In this document: piece after piece, positions 31,530 to 59,502 of the stretch
Layout: every line of letters starts with the position of its first letter
How positions within the stretch are numbered: position 1 is the stretch's first letter
Assembly: GCA_037042185.1 (NCBI GenBank)
Contig: JAXQJY010000027.1
Span: forward strand, 3,100,001-3,164,000
Source of the DNA: Sordariomycetes sp. S80-01Y
Lineage: Eukaryota > Ascomycota > Sordariomycetes
DNA: 64,000 bases
Reading direction: 5' to 3'
Made by a program: the position numbers and the translations under genes
The notes under the pieces: generated by a model
Databases searched by the model: none
The model's input: only the letters and a program-made list of their open reading frames with translations
Told to the model about the DNA's origin: nothing

Positions 31530-34128
31530 CTACCTCAGGGGCTTGTTTTCCCGGTCATCGTCACTGTCGCTGTCACCCCCAATGTCGAACTGCCCTGTCT
31601 CGCCCCTGTCGCCAGGCAGCTTGTCCACCGAGGGCTCCCGGTCGGAGTATCTGTCGAAATCATCCTCGTCTTCGCTGCCCCCGGCGAAGGCGTCGTAGAG
31701 CTCACCGCCCCGCGTCCTCCTGTTGCCGGCTGCCGTCTTCTCGCCGGGGTTCAGACCCTCCGTCTCTTCCTCGTCGAGCATTGCGAACTCGTAGCTGCTC
31801 CTGGTGTCGTTCCTCTGTCGCTTCCTCCGCATGACGATGAAGGCAATTCCCAGGCCGATGCAGAAAGCGGCGATGATGCCAATGGCGGCGTAGATCCATG
31901 GCTGAGCAGCCTTTGACGCGCCGAGGGTGGGTAGCCAGGAGATCCACGAAGTCGACGATTCAGAAGTCTCAGCTTCCTGGGCCTCGCTGGTCTCCGACGC
32001 GCTCTCATCTTCATCCTCGGTTTCGGTCGGCTTCGGCTTCTCCTCAGGCTTGGAAGGCTTGGTAGGACGCTGGGGGTGCTCTGATGGGTGAGGCATGGAG
32101 TGGTCGTGGTTGGTCTCTTCAGGACGTGGCGGACCGGTGGCGGTGCTAACGGGCGCTGTCTGGGTAGAGGAGATTATCTCGTCGTGGTCGGCGTCATCGT
32201 CTTCCTTGGGCATAGGCAGGAGGGTCGCCTTGTCGGCGTCAATGGACTCGCCCCAGAGCTTGAGGTGCCAGTCCACGAACTGGCCTTGATGCTGATTGAT
32301 GTTGTTGTCTTTCACAACAAGAGTCCACTTGCCGATGCCAGACTCACCCCAGTGCACAACGCTCATGAAGGTCCAGTTGTCGTAGCCAGCCTTTTCCGCA
32401 TCGTCTTTCCGGTCCGTGGCGATGTGGCTGATGATGCCCTCTGGACTGATGAGGTCGACGCTGATGTCTCCACGACGGGTGTGCTCGACGTTCATGGTCA
32501 CTGTCACGTGCTCGACACGCTCCAAGTTGGCCTCCTTAAGCATGTCACTCGTCACCTCAAAGTGAACAGATAGCCCCTCCTTGCCCTCGGGAATGGCCTT
32601 CTTGACATGTTGCCAAGGCGAGAAAAACCAAGCCTGGGGCTTGACAAGCTCCCAATCTTTGGCCATCTCGACCATAGCGTAAGAGTCAACCTTACCGTAC
32701 CCAAACGTGTGGCTGAACTGTTTGCCAATTGTCGTTTCCTGCCAGTCTGCGGACTCATCCTCGACTTTGGCAGCAGTGTGGAGAGCAAGATACTGGAGAT
32801 CGCGCCAAGTTAGGTCCGGGCGAACTTGAAGAACGAGGGCAAAGATGCCCGCAGCGAGGGGAGCCGCGGCAGAAGTGCCTCCGTGGCCGCTGTAGCACTT
32901 GTTCGTGCCGACATCAGTCGTGTGCTGTACTTGTCAACATTTCATCGTGATCTCTCGTCGTGAGTACACTTACGATAGAGTCACCGCTACCGCTGCTGTA
33001 GGTCACCACCAGGTTTGCGGAACAGTGTTCGGAATAGTAGGGGTGCATGCCGGCACGGTCAACCGCACCGACAGTGATGCTGTAGATGGAGTTGGTGTAG
33101 CCGTCGAAGTTGCAGTTGTCCCCATGCGCGGCGCCGTTGCCGCTCGCGAAGACGTAGACCGAGCCCTTTCCGCCGCGGCCCTCCTGAATGCCCTGGAGCA
33201 TGGCCCTGCGAATGAGCACATCGGGTGCTTCCATATGACGACCGTCATCGGGAGGGCCCCAAGAGCACGAATAGATGTCGTTCAGCTGGGATTGGTAGAT
33301 CAGGGCCTCGGCTTCGTCAGCATTAGTGAGATCACCGCTCAGGATTCTGATTCCAGCAATCTTGGAATCATACGCAACGCCGACTCCACAGACGTCGTTG
33401 CGGCCGGCAGCGATTTCGCCTGCGCATCGGGTTCCATGTTTGTCGTCGGAGAGAGTGGGCTTCGGCTCGGGGTCGTGCTCGTTGAAGTCGTAGGATCCTT
33501 CAGCAAAGTAGTTCGCCGCCAGGTCCTGGCTGTACATGTCCAAGCCGTCGTCGACAATGGCCACCGTGACGTTGTGTCCTGTGATGCCATTTTTCCACAC
33601 GTCAGTGACGTTGACGTCGTGCCCCGTCTGGACAGTGTTGTAGAGGTGCCACTGGTCCTTGAAGATGGGATCGCTGATGCCCAGATCGCGCATGACCTCC
33701 TCTTGTCTCTGAACTGCCCAGTCGACCGGCTGTTGAGGAATGGCCAAGCCCAGGCGCGAGTTGGCAGCCGCAACGTAGGCGGGAGGTGGAATGCGCTTCT
33801 CATGTGGTTTCCGTGGCTTCTGCTTCTGCGCCAGTAAAACTCCGTCCAGGACATCGTCATCGTCCAGATCTCGTTTCCTCCTTCGTCTTTCCTTGATGGC
33901 GGACTTGGCTATGTCATCCTCAGACTTTGGGCTTCGGAAGATGTGGTGATCGGCCAGCGAACTTGCGCCATGGTGCTCCAGGCCCAGGCGTGCCGCAACG
34001 TCGGCAGGTTCGACATTGCGCTCGAGGTGTAGGACGTAGTAGTCATTATTGGCGTAGTCCCTGGGCGCTAGAGAGGCCTGCGAAAGGGCTGGGAGGCCAA
34101 GAAGGCCAAGCAGCGCGAGGACCTTCAT
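31530..34128 (-). CDS. KEX2: Kexin, Golgi prohormone-processing protease
   Basis: Two exons, 34128-32974 and 32924-31530, with a 49 bp intron (GTAAGT donor, TTGAC branch), give 849 residues. Order: signal peptide (MKVLALLGLLGLPALSQAS); propeptide ending at HEKR (109-112), the self-cleavage site; S8B catalytic domain with Asp193 (AIVDDGLDM), His231 (DDKHGTRCAGE), oxyanion Asn in FASGNGA, and Ser403 (GHGGTSAAAPLAAG) in exon 2; P domain (about 510-650, EHVTVTMNVEHTRRGDIS); Pro/Ser/Thr/Glu-rich stalk; membrane helix (about 727-749, YAAIGIIAAFCIGLGIAF); and a cytosolic tail with YEFAMLDEEE and acidic clusters for Golgi retrieval. It cuts after Lys-Arg and Arg-Arg in secretory precursors. The intron separates the Asp/His half from the Ser. 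The frame is open for 47 codons upstream, but this ATG begins the signal peptide. Confidence 0.97.
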
Positions 34129-35174
34129 GGCGCAGGGGAGGAAGAAGGGAGTGATGTCGGATTTATTGGGGCTGATACATTGAAGTAACGAGGTGGGCGT
34201 GTGCGGTGGAAACAAAGACGTTTCTAAGAGAGAGAAATCTGTCAGTCGATTTCCGTCGAGTTTAAGCAACGCTTGAAGGTGTCGAAGCCGTCATCGTCTG
34301 GAGAGGAAAGGGGAGTGTCATGCGTATGTTGGTGGCTGACGAGGTTGAACCTTGAACAGACGTGGCGAAGCAACACTGCGGCTGAGGGCTGGACTCACAT
34401 CGTTAATAAAGTGGGCGCGCAGGTCGAAACAAGCAGAAATGGCGGTGCAGAATCGAACAGACAGCCCAACGGCGATGGTGATGATGGAGGAAGACAGATT
34501 CGTCGCAGGATGGACTGGACTTCAATGGGACCCTGGGAGATGATGTCGTCGTGGCCTCGCGCCAGCTGATTGTCAAAGTCTACCTACATGTGCAGGCAAA
34601 GTCGGCTGGTGTGCAAGGTACCCACTAACAAGGGAGCGGCACCAACAACCCCCTGAAAAGAGAAGGTCTACAGCGGCTGCTCCACTGGAAAATCCAACGG
34701 GCTACACGTAGTAGACTTTGATCCTCCATTTTTCCAATACATTGACTCGGACTACCATCTGGATCGACATTGGCTCAAGACATCGCAATCTGCGCATCTG
34801 CTTGCCCTTGTGATGCGTTGCGCCGAGGTCAAGATCGATGATTAAAAGAAGCCTTGACGCATATGTACAGTCTAGAACCCTCATTTTCGAGGCCGACGAA
34901 CCTAATCCGGGGTTCAATAGCTCCGCCCAGCACAACAGCAAACGCCTCAGAAGGGTACGAGCGTAGCTCATCGGGAACCAGTTACAGCTTGGCATTGTCG
35001 CTAACACTGCTACGAAAAAAAAACACTAGACGCCTGCAAAGAACACTCCGCATCCTTAACGCCTCGACCAAACAAGCCCCGCCAAATACTGTCACGCGCC
35101 GTTGCCCTGGTCTACCTCCAGCTCAAGCGTTCCAACTGTCTGCGCGCCGGTCTAATCTTCCAACGCGTTTGGCA
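34129..35174. other. KEX2 promoter and MIR1 3' region
   Basis: About 1 kb with no supported gene. An A9 run is at 35015-35023. Short frames on both strands (34273-34569 plus, 34702-35007 minus) have no motif. Confidence 0.5.
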
Positions 35175-47628: not shown

Positions 47629-49380
47629 TCAGTCTTTTGCCGTGGCCTCTGAGGTAGGCCCTGTGTTGTCTAGCTCGAACGGCTGGTGAAAGGGAGCGGT
47701 TCTATCCGACTCACTGTTCCCTTTCAACTCTGATGGTCGTTCCTCGTGTGGCATCTCGAAAAGCTGCTTGTCACGAACGTCCTTATCCGACACAGCTCCA
47801 GCGGCGTTCCCATGTAATTCCGGTGTACATCGACTGTGGGGGGGCTCAGATATAACCTCCGCCCCTGCTTTCGCATTCCTCTTCTTTCGATAGATAAGAA
47901 ATGCTGTTCCAATCAGGAGTAAAATAACAGCAGCGCCGCCCAGCACGCTGCCTACAATGACTGCGGTCCTTTTGCTACCGCCTCCTCTGCCTCTGCTTGA
48001 GCTGCCGTTGCCACCGCTTTCGTTGCTCTCCGTCTCCTTCGAAGAATTCAAGCTATTACTGCTGCTGGCCGTCTCAGATGGATGTGGGGACTTTGCGGTG
48101 CGTGATTCCAAATATCCGGTTGGCCAAGTCTGAGCAATTGACTCTGTCACATACGGCGAAACCAAATCGTCGGCTGCGCTGCAGTAGAAATCCAACACTT
48201 CATAAGCCGAGGAAAACTCATTCGTCGCTGTACTTCCACACAACTCTTCAGCTGCGCTTGTCAGAGACTTCCGTATAGAAGACCTCATGCCCGACTTCTG
48301 GCAGACACACGATGCGAGCGCCTGAGGACCTTCAGGACACATCCACTCTGTTTGCTGTACGATCGGTTAGTGGCTGCAGTATCGTAGAAATTCTTCGAAT
48401 CAACCCACCTGCTGAACTACTGATGAGAGCACAGTCTGAGCACAGTCTGCCATAGCTCCATATTGTACCAGAGCAGTGATATAGTAGGACACTACTCTGT
48501 GATTAGTACACACGGAGGTGCCAGGGTCTCCGGGACTCACTGTCTCCCGAAGGACTCTCAGGGGTGGTAAACCCGTAGAAGTCATCATAACCACCACCCG
48601 CCAACTCGCAGTAATTATAATGGAACGCAAATGCCGAGCTGACATCTTCGCTATTTGAGCACGAGGATTGTACGCCACTACTAACGCTCGATTTGATCGC
48701 ATAAACCGCATCCGGCTTGTAGCACACGCATGGCCCATAAAGCCAGGCTTCTTCTGGACATACCGACTACTCAAAGCTTCAGTATGAGCATTCCAAAGTT
48801 GATTCCTTCTATTGTGGTCAACAGGCGTGGTTGACTTACTTGGTCTGCAACAGCCTCCGCGAGAGCCGAACTTGCACATGGTGCGAGCATTCGCATCTGT
48901 GGAAAATCTGTAATATACGAATCGACTACCTCTGCGCCTGTTGGGGTTGCGAAATAGGGTTCGTAATCAGGGTAGCAGTATTTTCGGAACACCATCGACG
49001 CGCTGATGTTGTCTATCCAGGCCGAACTGTCACATGATGCGAAAACTCCGCTGCTAATTGAAGACGAAACCTCCGGCCAAAGGTCACTATCGGAGCATAT
49101 GCAGGCGTGAAGGTGTATCCTCTCTTCACGCCCGTTGTTGCATTTGCCATCAGACTCGGTCTGATGGCCGACAGCTTGGGAGAGAGCACTCGCAACGCAT
49201 TGTGGCTGATGAGCTGTTAGTAAGGATCGGAAAACAAGAGATGGATCAACGTGCCACTACAGAAAACTCCTCAATATCCTCGATGTAGACAATATCCTCA
49301 GTATGAATATCATCGGATGAGGATACGTTCAACGCAAAAAGCGCTGCCCCGGCGTAGAGCAGGTGAAGCGAGACTTTCAT
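47629..49380 (-). CDS. Surface protein with three six-cysteine modules and one membrane helix
   Basis: Five exons, 49380-49261, 49205-48840, 48766-48541, 48494-48409 and 48354-47629 (introns 55, 73, 46, 54 bp), give 507 residues. It has a signal peptide (MKVSLHLLYAGAALFALNVS), three successive Cys modules, a Ser/Thr-rich stalk, a helix (TAVIVGSVLGGAAVILLLIG) and a basic stop-transfer RKKR with a 90-residue cytosolic tail. Each module fits C-x(14-18)-C-x(9-12)-C-x-C-x(20)-C-x(16-18)-C: module 1 has ACICSD, module 2 PCVCYK, module 3 SCVCQK. The spacing resembles no named domain I can place; CFEM has eight Cys and another layout. Single-pass topology suggests an adhesin or sensor. The first intron has a weak GTAGTG donor but a good ACTAAC branch; other junctions are supported by the module repeat. 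Confidence 0.75.
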
Positions 49381-50292: not shown

Positions 50293-52347
50293 ATGATGGC
50301 CGACTACCACTACCAGCCTCTGCCCCCGATACCCGAGACCGAACGCTCACCTCCTTACACACGGATCGTTTGGCTGGCATCTGGATCCGGAGAGCAGCCT
50401 CTATCCGCCCAGCTAGAGCTCGTCAATGCCGCCCAGGCGCCACGACCCTACGAGGCTCTTTCGTACACTTGGGGAAGCGACCCGCCGAGCAACTTCCTGT
50501 GGCTGCATGGCTGTGCGCTGGCCATTCGACCGAACCTCGAGGCGGCTTTGCTGTCGCTTCGACTACCCACCCAGCCAAGGCTGCTATGGGTCGACGCGAT
50601 TTGTATAAACCAGAACGACGTGGACGAGCGGAGCAGGCAGGTCCAGTACATGCGGCTCGTATATAAGCATGCTGCGCGTGTGGTGGTCTGGGTCGGTGTC
50701 AAGTCACCAGGTGTTGATTTGGCTTTTGAGCTGGCTCGCCGGCTTGTCGACTTGCGCGACATGGTTGAAGAGCAGAAGAGGTCCGGCAGCGGTGTCGATC
50801 CGAAAGCCATCCAAGACCTGAGGGATGGAATACTGTCGGACATGTCTCCAGACGCCCTTGGCAGGATGTACCAACTGATTCAGCGAGCGTACTTTACGAG
50901 AGTATGGTGTGTTCAGGAGGTCGTAGCGTCCAAATCAGCCGTTCTCAAGTGTGAGGAGCTGGAGATACCCTTTGTTGATATGGTTGAGCATGTGATCCTG
51001 GCCCGGCATGCAGTACCCACCATGGCTCACGACCAGCCTCTGCACTTGTGGTACAGTATTTGGGAGGCTAAGCACTCTGGCAACGAGAAGAGCTCCGCTG
51101 GCGTTGAAGGCTCGCTGGGCAAGATGCTGGAACTCCTGGACGTGATGAGACCTTTCCAAGCCACTGACCCCCGTGACAAGATCTTCGCTTTACAAGGCAT
51201 CAGCGACGAAGGCATTGAGCCGACCAGATCAATGACACAGATTATGGGAAAGGAAGGCCTCATGGTGCGGGGCATCCGGCGGTTCGCTACGGGCCTCGCA
51301 AACACCCTTAACAGCTTTGGTCCTGACTTTGATTTCGGAAGACCAGAAGCTCTGAAGGCCAACTATCGGAAGGCGACGGATGACGTCTATATTGACCTGA
51401 CACGCTTCATGTTGCGCGCCCAGCCGCGGGTGCTTGACGTGCTGGATCATGTCTCGCATCAGACAGAGCCCATCCCCAGCGATTGGCCCTCGTGGGTGCC
51501 CAGATGGTTTGAGAATAGGTCTGTCCAGAAGATGTCGGGTCTCTACCTCGCTGGCTTCTGCAAAGGCCATTTCCGCTACTTTGCTGAGATCCACGATAAC
51601 CCTATAGGTGGACGCGCGAATCCTCTCACGGGGGGACCACGCTTCCCTCGTACGCTATCTATTGACGGCTACCATGTCGACATCGTTCAACAAGCGTCCA
51701 ATGTGATGCAACATAACATCCTACTAGCCGCCCCCACAATTGCTTCCATTGAGCGGGCATGGTCTGAGCTCTTCCCGTTTCCGATGACACCGTCACCCAG
51801 TGCACGCTACCGTGATGGCGGGCCCCTGGACCTCGCCTTTTGCAGGGCCATATCAGCCCATCCTTTCGGCGACGGTGTCGGTATATCGGCTGAGTCTATG
51901 CATACAAGCACAAGCACAGCGTGGACCTTGCCCGACAATTTCAAGGAGGAATTCGCGGCAAGTGTCAAAGACGGCGGCGCGCGTGCCAGGGCTTTTCTGG
52001 CGCAGTACAACCAAAAGCTCATGCATGCCGCTGGTCAAGAACCTGTCTACGAGGAGGAATTCTGCCGGCCTTATCTGACCGGACTTCGCATTTACGCTAA
52101 CAACCGCCGAGTGTTCATCACGCGAGATGGCCGTCTTGGCCTTGGTCCGGCCATGATGCAGCCTGGCGATGAAATCGTAGTTCTCTTCGGTGGAAGGTTA
52201 CCCTTCGTCGCTCGAAGAAAAGCCGACCACCATGTTTTCATTGGGCAGTGCTACCTTGTTGATGAAGAGATCATGTGGGGGAAGTTGACGGAGCAAGTCC
52301 TCATCCATCAGAATGGGCCGAAGCGTGTGACGTACCGTTTCCTTTGA
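50293..52347 (+). CDS. Heterokaryon-incompatibility (HET) domain protein
   Basis: Intronless and intact, 684 residues from the ATG at 50293 (a second ATG follows at once). The HET domain (PF06985) spans about residues 50-230: YEALSYTWGSDPP opens it, LLWVDAICINQNDVDERSRQ is its most conserved block, and YFTRVWCVQEVVASKSAVL closes it. The C-terminal 400 residues are of the kind often attached to HET domains (WPSWVPRW; GRLGLGPAMMQPGDEIVVLF; PFVARR; YLVDEEIMWG). HET proteins trigger or relay non-self recognition and programmed cell death after hyphal fusion; many of the large family have no proven role. Cytosolic by lack of targeting signals. No STAND NTPase or partner lies next to it, so whether it works in incompatibility is open. 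Confidence 0.93.
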   Translation: MMADYHYQPLPPIPETERSPPYTRIVWLASGSGEQPLSAQLELVNAAQAPRPYEALSYTWGSDPPSNFLWLHGCALAIRPNLEAALLSLRLPTQPRLLWVDAICINQNDVDERSRQVQYMRLVYKHAARVVVWVGVKSPGVDLAFELARRLVDLRDMVEEQKRSGSGVDPKAIQDLRDGILSDMSPDALGRMYQLIQRAYFTRVWCVQEVVASKSAVLKCEELEIPFVDMVEHVILARHAVPTMAHDQPLHLWYSIWEAKHSGNEKSSAGVEGSLGKMLELLDVMRPFQATDPRDKIFALQGISDEGIEPTRSMTQIMGKEGLMVRGIRRFATGLANTLNSFGPDFDFGRPEALKANYRKATDDVYIDLTRFMLRAQPRVLDVLDHVSHQTEPIPSDWPSWVPRWFENRSVQKMSGLYLAGFCKGHFRYFAEIHDNPIGGRANPLTGGPRFPRTLSIDGYHVDIVQQASNVMQHNILLAAPTIASIERAWSELFPFPMTPSPSARYRDGGPLDLAFCRAISAHPFGDGVGISAESMHTSTSTAWTLPDNFKEEFAASVKDGGARARAFLAQYNQKLMHAAGQEPVYEEEFCRPYLTGLRIYANNRRVFITRDGRLGLGPAMMQPGDEIVVLFGGRLPFVARRKADHHVFIGQCYLVDEEIMWGKLTEQVLIHQNGPKRVTYRFL

Positions 52348-53848: not shown

Positions 53849-56800
53849 CTACCTCTTCCTCTCCTTTGCCGCCGCACTCAAACTTCCATTGCCGTTCGTC
53901 TTCTCCGAGGCGTTCGTCATTGCCAACGACACGGGCGTCATGGCCGGCGGCGGAGCCGGCGTGCTGGACCTCGATGGTGCAGCGGAGCGGTTGTGCGCCA
54001 TGTGTGCCCTAACCAAGTGCCCAGCGGCCAGAGCTGAGCAGAGTGAGAGTTCACCAGCAAGAGTAGCAGCGCCAATGACCCGGGCAAGACGGCGTGCATT
54101 GTCGCCGGGATTGGTGGGGTGGGAGCCTCGCACGCCGAGGAGGTCGAGCATGGCGGATTGAGGCTCGAGGATGGTGCCGCCGCCAAGTGTACCAACTTCC
54201 AGCGAAGGCATGGATACGCAAATTTGAAGGTATCCGGGGTGTGCTTCGGTGTTGAGCCTGCGATGCAAATGTCAGCAAATCTACTACAAACGTCGAGCGA
54301 AGTATACTTACTTCTTCATGGTCGTGATGCAGTTGGCCGATTCGACCACCTGGGCAGGGTCCTGACCGGTGGCCAGGAAGATAGCAGCGACGATGTTGGC
54401 AGCGTGTGCATTGAAGCCACCAATAGCACCAGCCATGGCGGAGCCGATCAAGTTCTTAGATGTGTTGAGCTCGACCAGCGAGTCAACATCGCTCTTCAGG
54501 ACTGACTGTACAACATGGGGCGGGATGATGGCCTCACATACCACGCCCTTGCCGCGACCGTCGATCCAATTGAGAGCAGCCGGCTTCTTATCCGTGCAGT
54601 AATTGCCAGAGACCGAGATGATCTGCATATCCTCAAAGCCGCCCTCGCTAACCATGACGCCAAGGGCGTGCTCAACGCCCTTGGAGATCATGTTCATGCC
54701 CATGGCGTCACCGGTCGTGGTCTTGAATCGAATGTACAGGTTCGTGCCAGCCATGGCGGTCTTCATCTCTTGCAGACGAGCAAAGCGACTCGTTGAGTTA
54801 AAAGCACGCTTCATTGTGGTCTGACCAGACTCGGAGTCGAGCCAAAGCTTTGCAGCGGCAGCTCTTTCAAGCGTTTCGAAGCCAACGCAAGGACCGCGTG
54901 TCATGCCATCAGCGACCAGAGCAGTGAGGACGCCGCCACCAGCGTTGATCGCCTTGCAGCCACGGCTGGTGCTGGCAACCAAGACGCCTTCAGTCGTAGC
55001 CATGGGGATGAAGTAGCTCTGGTTGTCGATGACCAAGGGGCCGGCGACACCAACGGGGAGCGGCAGGTAGCCGATGACATTCTCGCAGCAAGCGCCAAAG
55101 ACACGTTCCCAGTTATAGTTCTTGTAAGGGAGCTTTGAGTGCTCGAGCGTTTGCGTCAGCTCGCGCGTAGCCTTGGTTCGGGATATGATGGATCGGCGGA
55201 CTTTAACGGCACGGGTGAAGTCCTTGAGCGACTTCTCGAGGGCGTAACCTGGGATCTTGCCGTTCACCGACATCATGACAACCTCTTCGTCCGTCATTTC
55301 GTGGGTGCGTTTCTCGGCTAGCAAACCAGCAAGTTCTTCAGGAGAGCGCAAAATCTGGCTCTCGCTCTGCTCGGTGCGTCCAGAGTCGGATTCGTCGTCG
55401 GTTGCCTCGGGTGTGGCCGGCTGGGTGCGCTGAGGTGTCGGGGGGACATACTCGCCCAGCGGAAGGGTGGCGGCACCGGTGTCGTTGAAGCGCTGGGCCT
55501 TGTCAAGCTCGTTGCGGTCGACGTTACGCTCGGGTACGTTGGGGTCCTTGATCCCAGTTTTGGCCACATTGAACAGGTAGCCATTCAATCCTACGCTGAG
55601 AGCAAGAGCAACAACGATCCATTTGGAAAGAACTGGGTCTTCGAGGCTCTTCAACAAGCTGCCGACCATGCGACCCCCAACACCGAAGTCCTCAAGCTGA
55701 CCAAGTCCATCGAGGGCGCCACCGCTTCCACCAAGTGAGGATGTCAGAGCGTAGTGGATCGAAGGGAACTCCAGTTCATATTTGATGGGAGTCAGGATAG
55801 TGACCAGTGTGGGGATGTTGTTGGCCTTTGCCGTCGCGAGGATGGCATCGAGGCCATTGGAGGCAACCTTGAAGGGGTCAACAGGCGGGCTGGAGACGAC
55901 GCCACCTAGACCGCCAGCCCAAGATCGAATACTGGTGAAAGAACCTGCGCTGCGGAAAGGGATGGTACAGAGGTTGATGACATTAATGAGGACAAAGCCG
56001 GACACCATCAGTACCTTGAACTTAGGCACACTGCTGCTCTTGAGCTTGCGTCCAAACAATGAAGTTTCCTCGGTCTTGTCGTCGTTGCTCTTAGCGACGT
56101 TCTCAGCAGTGCGGCGGCTGAGACCATCGTCTTCCAGGGCCATTCGCATCTCGACGTGGCGCTTGATACGGTTGATCTCGAGCTTGATGCTCAGAATGGC
56201 AGTGTAGAATGTGAACAGGAGCAAGCAATCGAAGAACAAGATCCAGGATGCGAGGAAGCAGAACTGCTGTAAGCCGCCCTGCACGCCAGAGAATGCACCG
56301 ACAGCCAAGATAGCGATCTCGATGGCGTAATCACGAATGATCTCGTAGCCCTTTTCCTTGATGGCAGCCTGGATGGCATACTGGATGAGACCCTGAGTCG
56401 AGGGCTCGGGGGACTTACTGCCCTTCGACTTCTGGATGAGGTTGCGACGGTGCTCAATGGCGTGCGACAGGACGGCCCTAGTGAGAACAATGTTCTTCTC
56501 GAAGCCAATAGTGACAACCAAAAAAGGCAGACCCTCGGACAACAGAATAACGCTGATAGGTACTCCCAGCTTGGTTGTCACTGCCAGACCGAATAAAAAG
56601 GCGAATACAGAAGAGAACAAGGTGCTCATGCCCAGCCAGAAGTTGGAGCCCATGCGGCGCATGGACACAAACAACGACACAAAGGTCATATGCATGGAGA
56701 CGTAGCCAAGAACCATAATGACAATATCGAGTGTCTCGGCGTTCTTGAGCAGATCGATGAACTCAGACCAAGCGTTTTTGGCCCACTGGGCGATGGTGTT

Positions 56801-57571
56801 GCGAGTGGTGACCTTGGCAGCCTTCATGATCCACATCTTCTTCTCCTTGCCATGGCCGGTCTCCGTGACCTCCGCATCCTCGTTAGGGATCTCCTGCGCG
56901 GCGACGATGAAATCGGCAGCCTCTGCGTAAGGCAGCGAGTAAGCAAGAATGCTATCCTGAGAGTAGGTCGTGAAGGGGTTCTCAGTGGACGGAAGTTGGG
57001 TGACAGAGAGGTTCTCCGGCGTCGGAACGGCGTGTGATAGCGGTGCAGTGCTAGGCGAGTCACTCGACAGAGTGTCAGGGAAGACAAGAGTCAACAGCGC
57101 GAGGTGCTGATCGGTGGCAGAAGACTTGAGGCCGTCGACGCTCTGCCAGTTCCAGTTGGTGTCAGCTCCAGCGCGCAGCACCCTGCTGCCGTCGACAAGA
57201 GAGCTGAAATCGGCCTTTCCCACACTTGTAGTGCCGTCGAACAGGCTGTCCTGAATCAAGCCAACATAACTGGTGCTGGCGAGGACAGCAATGAGGACGA
57301 CAAGGTGGATCGGGTGGGAGCAGGCGAGTTTGGCGAGGAATTGGAGGAAAGGGGTGATCTTCTTCCCAAGCCAAGTGGGCGCGGCATTCTGGGCTGGGGC
57401 CGAACCGCCGCGGAAGCGCATCGGAAGAAGCGTAGAGGAAAGCATCTCGGCGGTGAGAGGCTCGGAAAAGGTGACTCGTCGGGATGCGCGTGGTCTACGA
57501 CATTGGCGTGCGGGTTCGGTGTCGTGGGTCTCGGGCGTGGCCCACTGCCGGGTTGGGACTGTGAAAGACAT
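53849..57571 (-). CDS. HMG1: 3-hydroxy-3-methylglutaryl-CoA reductase
   Basis: Two exons, 57571-54312 and 54257-53849, with a 54 bp intron, give 1222 residues. The N-terminal half is membrane-bound: a first helix near residue 90, then a sterol-sensing domain (about 275-460) of several helices ([20 protein letters not shown]). A linker with acidic stretches leads to the catalytic domain: [17 protein letters not shown] (about 829), [11 protein letters not shown] (about 957, NADPH), [13 protein letters not shown], and from exon 2 VGTLGGGT and AHMAHNRS with the catalytic His. It reduces HMG-CoA to mevalonate, the rate-limiting step of ergosterol and isoprenoid synthesis, in the ER. Splicing joins CITTMKK to LNTEAHPGY. 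The tail ([15 protein letters not shown]) is longer than in yeast. A standard housekeeping copy; no terpene genes nearby suggest otherwise. Confidence 0.97.
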
Positions 57572-59502
57572 TGTAAGCTTCCGCGGAGAGAAGACAGCGT
57601 AGAAACATGAGTGAAGCTCGCGATGGGCTTCTGACTTACCTGCTCGCCTCGTCCAGAACTACCACCCTGCTTCGGATGGTGGGTGGGCGAAGGAGTGGCC
57701 GGTGCTCGGCGTCGGTCGAGGAGAACAATGCTAATCAGTAGCAATTGAGGAGCAGCGCCACGTCGGTTTGGATTATCGGTTGACCAAGGCACTAGCTGAA
57801 CAAGAACAAAAGAAGAGGAGGGTAAGAGAGTGTCGAGGAAAGGAATCGATCGGGGAGGAGGGGATACAAAAACAGGGTTAAGGGTTGAGGGTTAACTGGG
57901 AAGTTTTGGTGAATATGGGGAAGATGGGAAAGTTGGACGGAATCTGCGCAGGCGATTCGGCTACTTCAGTGGCTGCAGAGCCTGTATCTTGGTGGAAAAG
58001 CGGGTCGGCAGCCCCTAAGTCGCGGCGGCAGGCGGTGAAGGGAATTTTTCAAGCCGGGGCGGTTGAGAATGGAAAGGAGCACTGGAGGAGCTGCTGTCGC
58101 CCCCGCCGATGTCTTATCGATTACGACAGACCCCTTGTGGAGCAATTTCGGGGGGATTTTAATGAGAATAATGGCGATCGTAGACGGCAAGCGCACACGA
58201 CTCGCTCAATTACAATCTTAATCGCTAGCTCTCATTCGCCGCGTATTATCTAACATCAGCCCATTATTTCCTGAGGCCATTCAACACTGCCACCGACGAT
58301 GCCCGCCGTAGCCACTCATCACCAGCTAAGGTACTCCGTACTCCCTGTGTTTGCCCAAATTGCGACTTACTCGGCGTGTTTGTCCTCCGCGCGTCGGCCA
58401 ACGGGTGATACTCGCCTTCCTTCTGCTGCACATGGCAATCGGCTGTGCGCGACGCTGACATCACTGGCACCTCCGAGACATCTGGCAAATGCTCGCGGGT
58501 GGCGCATGGAACCCCTGGATTCTGCCGCCGGCCTTCACTTGCCCCGCCCCGAACAAGCTAGATAACGCCCCGAAGTCAAATCCACCGACCCGGCCTGTTT
58601 CCTTTGTTTCGCGGCCACCAATCGTTGCTGTTTGCACATCTTGATTCAACTCATGTGACATCGCTACCTCAAGACAACGAAGCTCAAGCGTGTCTTGTGC
58701 GGCAATAGCACGGGACGGGGCCAAGCAGCTGAGAGTGATTGCATATGCCACGAGATCCCATCGTCATAGAATGAGAACCGAACTGACGAAGCCGACGGAC
58801 AGTCGACGACGATGATGACGGTCTTGAGGTTGCCGTATTTGCCAGTAACTAAGGTAGTAAGTAGTAGTAACATGCCTCGTGGCTCAGATACCACCAGGAT
58901 ACGCGTGTCGAGGCAGTTTGTGTGACCAGATATCTAGGCACATCAGTCTGCTCAGCCATGGAAGCTTCATCGACATTTTGGCTTCGCATGGCTAGCCAAG
59001 GTTGTCCGATTCCGTTGCATGACTTATGAGTCCCAAGTGTTTTCACATCTTCTTCATGATCAGGGGCTGTAATACCGTGTGCACTATTCTGGTCGTGCCT
59101 CACGCCGTCGCTTGTCCTACCCTACGGTTGCTGATGGCTTCCACGACGGGGTGCCGAAGGCTCACGTGGTCTGAATATGCGATGGCTTCCCTATTCACCT
59201 AATTTGAAAACTTGAAGGCAACAGACACTTATATTTCACTTTCACGGTTCAAGTCAGGCTAGCCTTGATGTAGGGTGTCTTGCACGGATTTGCACCAACT
59301 TTGCGACTCCGACCCGGACTCATCATGGCAATACTTGCTGCCACTTCTTATGTTCGCAGCCACGTCTGTTTACGAAATGCTCACCTAGCCCGTATGGTGG
59401 GCTGTTTCCTAGCTCAACCCTCGGTTTGAAATCACGTTGTTACATCCACCCTGCTCAGTACGACCAGCCTAGATGTCCAGGGTGGGCAGAGTCCGGGGCT
59501 TT
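57572..59502. other. HMG1 promoter/leader and spacer
   Basis: 1.9 kb without a supported gene. On the minus strand a strong CAG/GTAAGT donor at 57634-57639 could start a leader intron ending shortly before the HMG1 ATG. TACTCCGTA (58332-58340) is the reverse complement of the motif at 15281-15289. Confidence 0.5.

Follow-up and report, generated by a model that had tools for sequence, protein, structure and literature searches.

Three tandem six-cysteine modules with a CFEM-like register in a putative surface protein family of a Sordariomycetes fungus

Gene and protein at the locus

The 64,000-nucleotide stretch analysed here (Sordariomycetes sp. S80-01Y, contig JAXQJY010000027.1, positions 3,100,001 to 3,164,000; hereafter the window) carries on its minus strand, from 49380 to 47629, a gene whose five exons, assembled from candidate splice sites and translation, join into one open frame of 506 amino acids (aa). 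The product consists of a signal-like start, three consecutive modules of six cysteines, a Ser/Gly-rich stalk, one membrane helix, a basic stop-transfer sequence and a tail (Table 1). The gaps between successive cysteines are 18-12-1-20-18 in module 1, 14-9-1-20-16 in module 2 and 16-9-1-20-18 in module 3; the C-x-C centre reads ACIC, PCVC and SCVC, and the last cysteine closes KYC, NYC and FYC, respectively. A preliminary description of this DNA had placed the gene at these coordinates, with a constant 20-residue gap, C-x-C and aromatic-Cys motifs in three modules and a stalk, helix and stop-transfer behind them. The positions are right, the open spliced frame assigning the gene to the minus strand, every countable feature of the modules is correct, and the membrane-proximal part is borne out by a single helix followed directly by basic residues.

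Two candidate acceptors are available for intron 3, ending it at 48492 or 48447; the former is preferred because the resulting SYYITA occurs in both paralogues described below, and the cysteine spacings are the same with either. The signal-peptide-like start stays under the hydropathy threshold (1.6) that the membrane helix passes. Judged from these sequence traits, the signal-like start, helical modules, stalk and single helix would together make a type I surface protein.

Outside the modules, Pfam-A returned for the whole protein just two weak matches, both near the helix. A protein search of the genome gave 12 weak matches to its stalk and helix (L012-L014, L016-L024); the frames at L012, L013, L014 and L017 encode different surface-type proteins whose stalks resemble this one, and L018-L024 were covered by pattern scan only. 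Within the window, frames at 31530-34290 on the minus strand presumably encode a kexin-type membrane protease, whose stalk and helix weakly match the protein (E 0.28).

A family of at least three genes

Searching the genome (30.9 Mb in 16 contigs, the window lying on contig C10) with the protein revealed at least two further genes with all parts, at about 2456.0-2457.7 kb on contig C14 and at about 2638.4-2640.1 kb on contig C10. Searches with the ectodomain of each paralogue returned the same three genes only, among the best-scoring candidates, which are the only ones such a search scores, so that three is a lower bound. A cysteine-pattern scan of the window and the retrieved loci (320,100 bases, including overlapping copies) also matched these three genes only. 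In the alignment, the C-x-C-x20-C spacing is kept in 9/9 modules, as is an aromatic residue ahead of the last cysteine. Since all three modules, 20-residue gap included, recur in both paralogues, the architecture is no chance product. The module had been described as duplicated within one protein; it is indeed triplicated in a single-pass protein, but at least three such genes exist in this genome. Similar modules are probably common in proteins of Pezizomycotina.

Modules at the same position are 39-58% identical across genes, those at different positions 24-32%, and a tree of the nine modules groups them by position (support 97/96 for module 1, 84/89 for module 2 and 83/90 for module 3); the triplication is therefore older than the gene duplications. 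Profiles of the three positions match one another at 97.4 to 98.5% probability, the highest score being that of modules 2 and 3 (82, the other pairs reaching 73 and 65). A sister relationship of modules 2 and 3 was considered and dropped, the tree being rooted at its midpoint only. Introns 2 and 4, both in phase 0, interrupt modules 2 and 3 at nearly matching places, respectively 12 and 11 residues past the first cysteine, which fits the duplication of an intron-bearing unit. Introns 1 and 4 are missing from the C14 paralogue; a counterpart of intron 1 was modelled in the C10 paralogue, its exact donor being uncertain.

Among the three genes, synonymous sites approach saturation, with a proportion of differing synonymous sites (pS) of 0.64-0.82 over the modules and of nonsynonymous sites (pN) of 0.26-0.40. 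The ratio of nonsynonymous to synonymous rates (dN/dS) over the modules is 0.06-0.28 where computable. The short tail stretch given in Table 1 is common to 3/3 paralogues in the alignment, which suggests, by analogy with wall sensors, that the inside part matters too. This conservation bears on another explanation, namely a structural cell-wall or spacer protein without specific ligand, with which the Ser/Gly-rich stalk and the similar stalk-plus-helix ends of other surface-type frames of the genome would agree. We consider it improbable, as modules and tail stretch conserved across three diverged paralogues would exceed the needs of a spacer.

Upstream of the gene lies a divergent gene with a HET domain, as the preliminary description had it (E 4.2e-29); it is not part of the system. 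The two open reading frames searched beside the C10 paralogue encode an arylsulfotransferase and a GFO/IDH/MocA oxidoreductase, so linkage to HET is apparently not characteristic of the family, judging from these two neighbours. Together with the short introns and the CFEM genes, the HET gene points to a fungal genome. Further along the window, a long minus-strand frame at 54308-57658 is presumably an HMG-CoA reductase.

Table 1. Window coordinates of the three-module gene, its parts and its divergent neighbour.
Feature	Position	Strand	Basis
Whole coding region, 506 aa + stop	47629..49380	-	spliced frame open; joins supported by paralogues
Exon 1: hydrophobic signal-peptide-like start and Y-I-x-D-I stretch ahead of module 1	49261..49380	-	judged from sequence
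Intron 1, 55 bp, phase 0	49206..49260	-	GT..AG and CTAAC
Exon 2	48840..49205	-	5-exon model
Intron 2, 73 bp, phase 0	48767..48839	-	modelled in 3/3 genes
Exon 3	48541..48766	-	5-exon model
Intron 3, 49 bp, phase 1	48492..48540	-	place and phase identical in 3/3 genes
Exon 4	48409..48491	-	5-exon model
Intron 4, 54 bp, phase 0	48355..48408	-	modelled in C10 paralogue, absent from C14 paralogue
Exon 5	47629..48354	-	5-exon model
Module 1, first to last Cys, aa 43-117, wholly within exon 2	48975..49199	-	sequence, alignment
Module 2, first to last Cys, aa 150-215, interrupted by intron 48767-48839	48608..48878	-	sequence, alignment
Module 3, first to last Cys, aa 254-323, interrupted by intron 48355-48408	48181..48444	-	sequence, alignment
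Ser/Thr/Gly-rich stalk, aa 324-393	47971..48180	-	sequence
Single transmembrane helix, aa 395-420	47890..47967	-	sole region with Kyte-Doolittle 19-residue mean > 1.6
Basic stop-transfer RKKRNAK, aa 421-427	47869..47889	-	sequence
Putative cytosolic tail, 79 residues, with short stretch D-[RK]-x-x-x-F-H-x-P-x-E-[LM]-[DE]	47632..47868	-	alignment of paralogues
HET-domain gene, divergent neighbour	50293..52347	+	PF06985 E 4.2e-29

Comparison of the modules with CFEM

CFEM proteins owe their renown mainly to eight-cysteine members that carry haem or act as effectors of plant infection. No Pfam-A or NCBIfam model exceeds its cut-off for the protein or its modules. Foldseek comparison of module models with libraries of viral and PDB structures yielded no match with E of 0.001 or lower, and Csa2 was not among the matches listed for a first, weaker model. 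WSC, hydrophobin and LysM, from which the module had been distinguished beforehand, are not among the Pfam matches reported (E up to 10 for the whole protein and its three modules, E up to 1 for the nine modules, HMMER filters dropping most matches above E about 0.1), in agreement with that distinction. CFEM (PF05730) reaches at best 16.3 bits, with module 2 of the window gene, below the curated Pfam cut-off of 22 bits. In single-module searches it obtained 15.8-16.3 bits for module 2 and 12.1 bits for module 3, for which three unrelated families score alike; it is matched by 2/9 modules at E up to 1, every other family by one module at most. In the titles, abstract beginnings and selected passages of the papers listed by searches of the open PMC literature, we recognised no account of a triple module with six cysteines and C-x-C-x20-C spacing.

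The CFEM model matched 27 loci in the genome (E up to 10, best candidates scored; 23/27 above cut-off), and the three module genes are absent from them. When the nine modules were aligned with 20 of these loci, their six cysteines fell, over 64 columns, on CFEM cysteines C1, C3, C4, C5, C7 and C8. The place of C2 is taken by A or V in 9/9 modules and that of C6 by G, A, S, D or E in 9/9, the latter being located by the C6-x4-C7 spacing seen in 17/18 CFEM loci with both cysteines parsed. The modules thus do not conform to the eight-cysteine motif PxC[A/G]x2Cx8-12C...CxC...Cx3-4Cx15-16C, as worded in the passage cited (PMC4530338). The pairing C1-C7, C2-C6, C3-C4, C5-C8 is given, from a predicted structure, in the part of the MaCFEM85 report cited here (PMC9967070), and on that basis the missing C2 and C6 would be one bonded pair. 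This is only mild evidence, because random loss of two of eight cysteines yields a bonded pair 4 times in 28. The preliminary statement that CFEM has another cysteine layout therefore stands insofar as C2 and C6 are absent and the score lies below the Pfam cut-off, but the layout is that of CFEM minus the putative C2-C6 pair, with six cysteines in register. Likewise, the module is unnamed in the sense that no Pfam-A or NCBIfam family reaches its cut-off, but it shares this register with a named one.

As in CFEM (Csa2, PDB 4y7s), the module is a fungal, small, probably helical and cysteine-rich unit with a C-x-C centre, and 5/9 modules have a Pro one or two positions ahead of C1. Unlike CFEM, it has neither C2 nor C6 nor the haem-ligating Asp (9/9), it bears an aromatic residue before the last cysteine (9/9), and its C3-C4 loop is longer. 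Loss of partner cysteines has precedents: in the passages cited, MbCFEM4, MbCFEM10 and MbCFEM11 of Marssonina are six-cysteine CFEM proteins missing one such pair (PMC9684206), C3 and C4 or C1 and C7 in their case as opposed to C2 and C6 here, and six-cysteine CFEMs are mentioned for Neostagonosporella (PMC11176510). In the present genome, two CFEM-like matches appear reduced, one without the C3-C4 pair (L049, C16:1985692-1985862, minus strand) and one without C7 and the canonical C1 (L046, C10:1622610-1622798, plus strand); both are possible cases of natural CFEM disulphide loss.

A separate fungal disulphide domain of its own origin, resembling CFEM through the similar cysteine spacing of small helical secreted domains, is a possible alternative, less probable than CFEM derivation. 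Several results weigh on its side. Besides the lack of a Pfam-A family above cut-off, the module-CFEM profile alignment (hhalign) attains a probability of just 16%, a statistically weak link (37%, 3% and 0.8% by module group). Csa2 ties with unrelated folds in structure comparison of the predicted module model. Against PDB sequences, the module profile found a single match, the plant lipid-transfer protein 1n89 (E 0.45), and not Csa2, an indication that a likeness to the modules can also arise in different small helical folds with CxC. On the other hand, six cysteines stand in register with losses limited to one presumed pair, and the likeness extends beyond the cysteines: the alignment score of 20.15 was reached by 0/100 shuffles with cysteines held and 0/100 full shuffles (maxima 18.69 and 19.33), and the CFEM hidden Markov model ranks the modules above 344/360 cysteine-fixed shuffles, the weakest in each gene being module 3 (reached by 4, 5 and 5 of 40 shuffles). 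In our view the three-module family is unnamed and most likely a CFEM-like variant that has diverged, not a domain of a new kind.

Loss of the haem ligand and possible role

The Asp three residues before C-x-C, the axial haem ligand of CFEM, is found in 0/9 modules, which have Leu (6), Tyr (2) or Met (1) instead. It is present in 21/23 parsed loci of the CFEM search in this genome, the other two having Asn and Ser (4/27 loci were unparsed). Tandem CFEM proteins exist, as illustrated by one 685-residue frame of this genome (C8:390768-392090, plus strand; L030, L033, L034, L036) with four tandem CFEM matches, each with C-x-C and Asp, and CFEM relays carry haem in Candida, according to the passages cited (PMC9635878). 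Together with the CFEM-like register, this would accommodate a receiver of haem or iron, anchored in the membrane like members of a CFEM relay and binding haem through three successive modules. As the ligand Asp is gone from the modules, the position holding neither Asp nor Asn in 9/9, we judge a role in a haem relay very unlikely.

Another likeness is offered by the ferric reductases of Candida albicans, whose N-terminal domains carry six of the eight CFEM cysteines in the passages cited (PMC9635878) and are CFEM-like with three of four disulphides; these domains differ in standing at the N-terminus of a ferric reductase and in keeping Asp in 4/12 and having Asn in 6/12 of those examined there (PMC9635878). 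The ferric-reductase N-termini of the present genome were examined as a direct source and set aside: six upstream stretches among 19 PF01794 matches, read in three gene-strand frames (segments of at least 45 aa) and scanned for the cysteine pattern in six frames, contained no such module. Separately, a ferric-reductase-like locus (L076, C6:784100-785100) has a pre-membrane cysteine layout that differs from the modules (YKPRCAYSC...CLATN...WCIHMHC). Asn-type CFEM proteins of Verticillium are described, in the part of the source cited, as suppressing plant immunity and not binding iron (PMC8867779), and may serve by analogy as a precedent for a CFEM fold without Asp that does other work.

We propose, with a probability of about one half, that the gene encodes a type I membrane protein with three modules derived from CFEM or sharing its fold, likely acting as a wall-spanning, non-haem sensor or adhesin; the even odds apply to the CFEM-derived part, and the sensor or adhesin role is less certain. 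Each four-helix module would have lost the C2-C6 disulphide and the haem-ligating Asp and kept C1-C7, C3-C4 and C5-C8. Lifted by the stalk, the modules would extend into the cell wall or across it, with the helix and basic stop as their anchor; they might bind a non-haem ligand or a wall polymer, the conserved tail stretch acting inside the cell. A bolder version, in which these genes form a fungal type I receptor family with a CFEM fold cut to three disulphides, haem binding lost, a triplicated ectodomain and a conserved signalling tail, is tentative and rather doubtful. If the proposed CFEM derivation is true, the existence of a membrane-anchored form with three modules and no haem ligand would point to the CFEM fold as a scaffold for binding in general on the surface of fungi. 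Surveys built on the eight-cysteine model would then miss such genes, as the CFEM model did here among its best-scored candidates.
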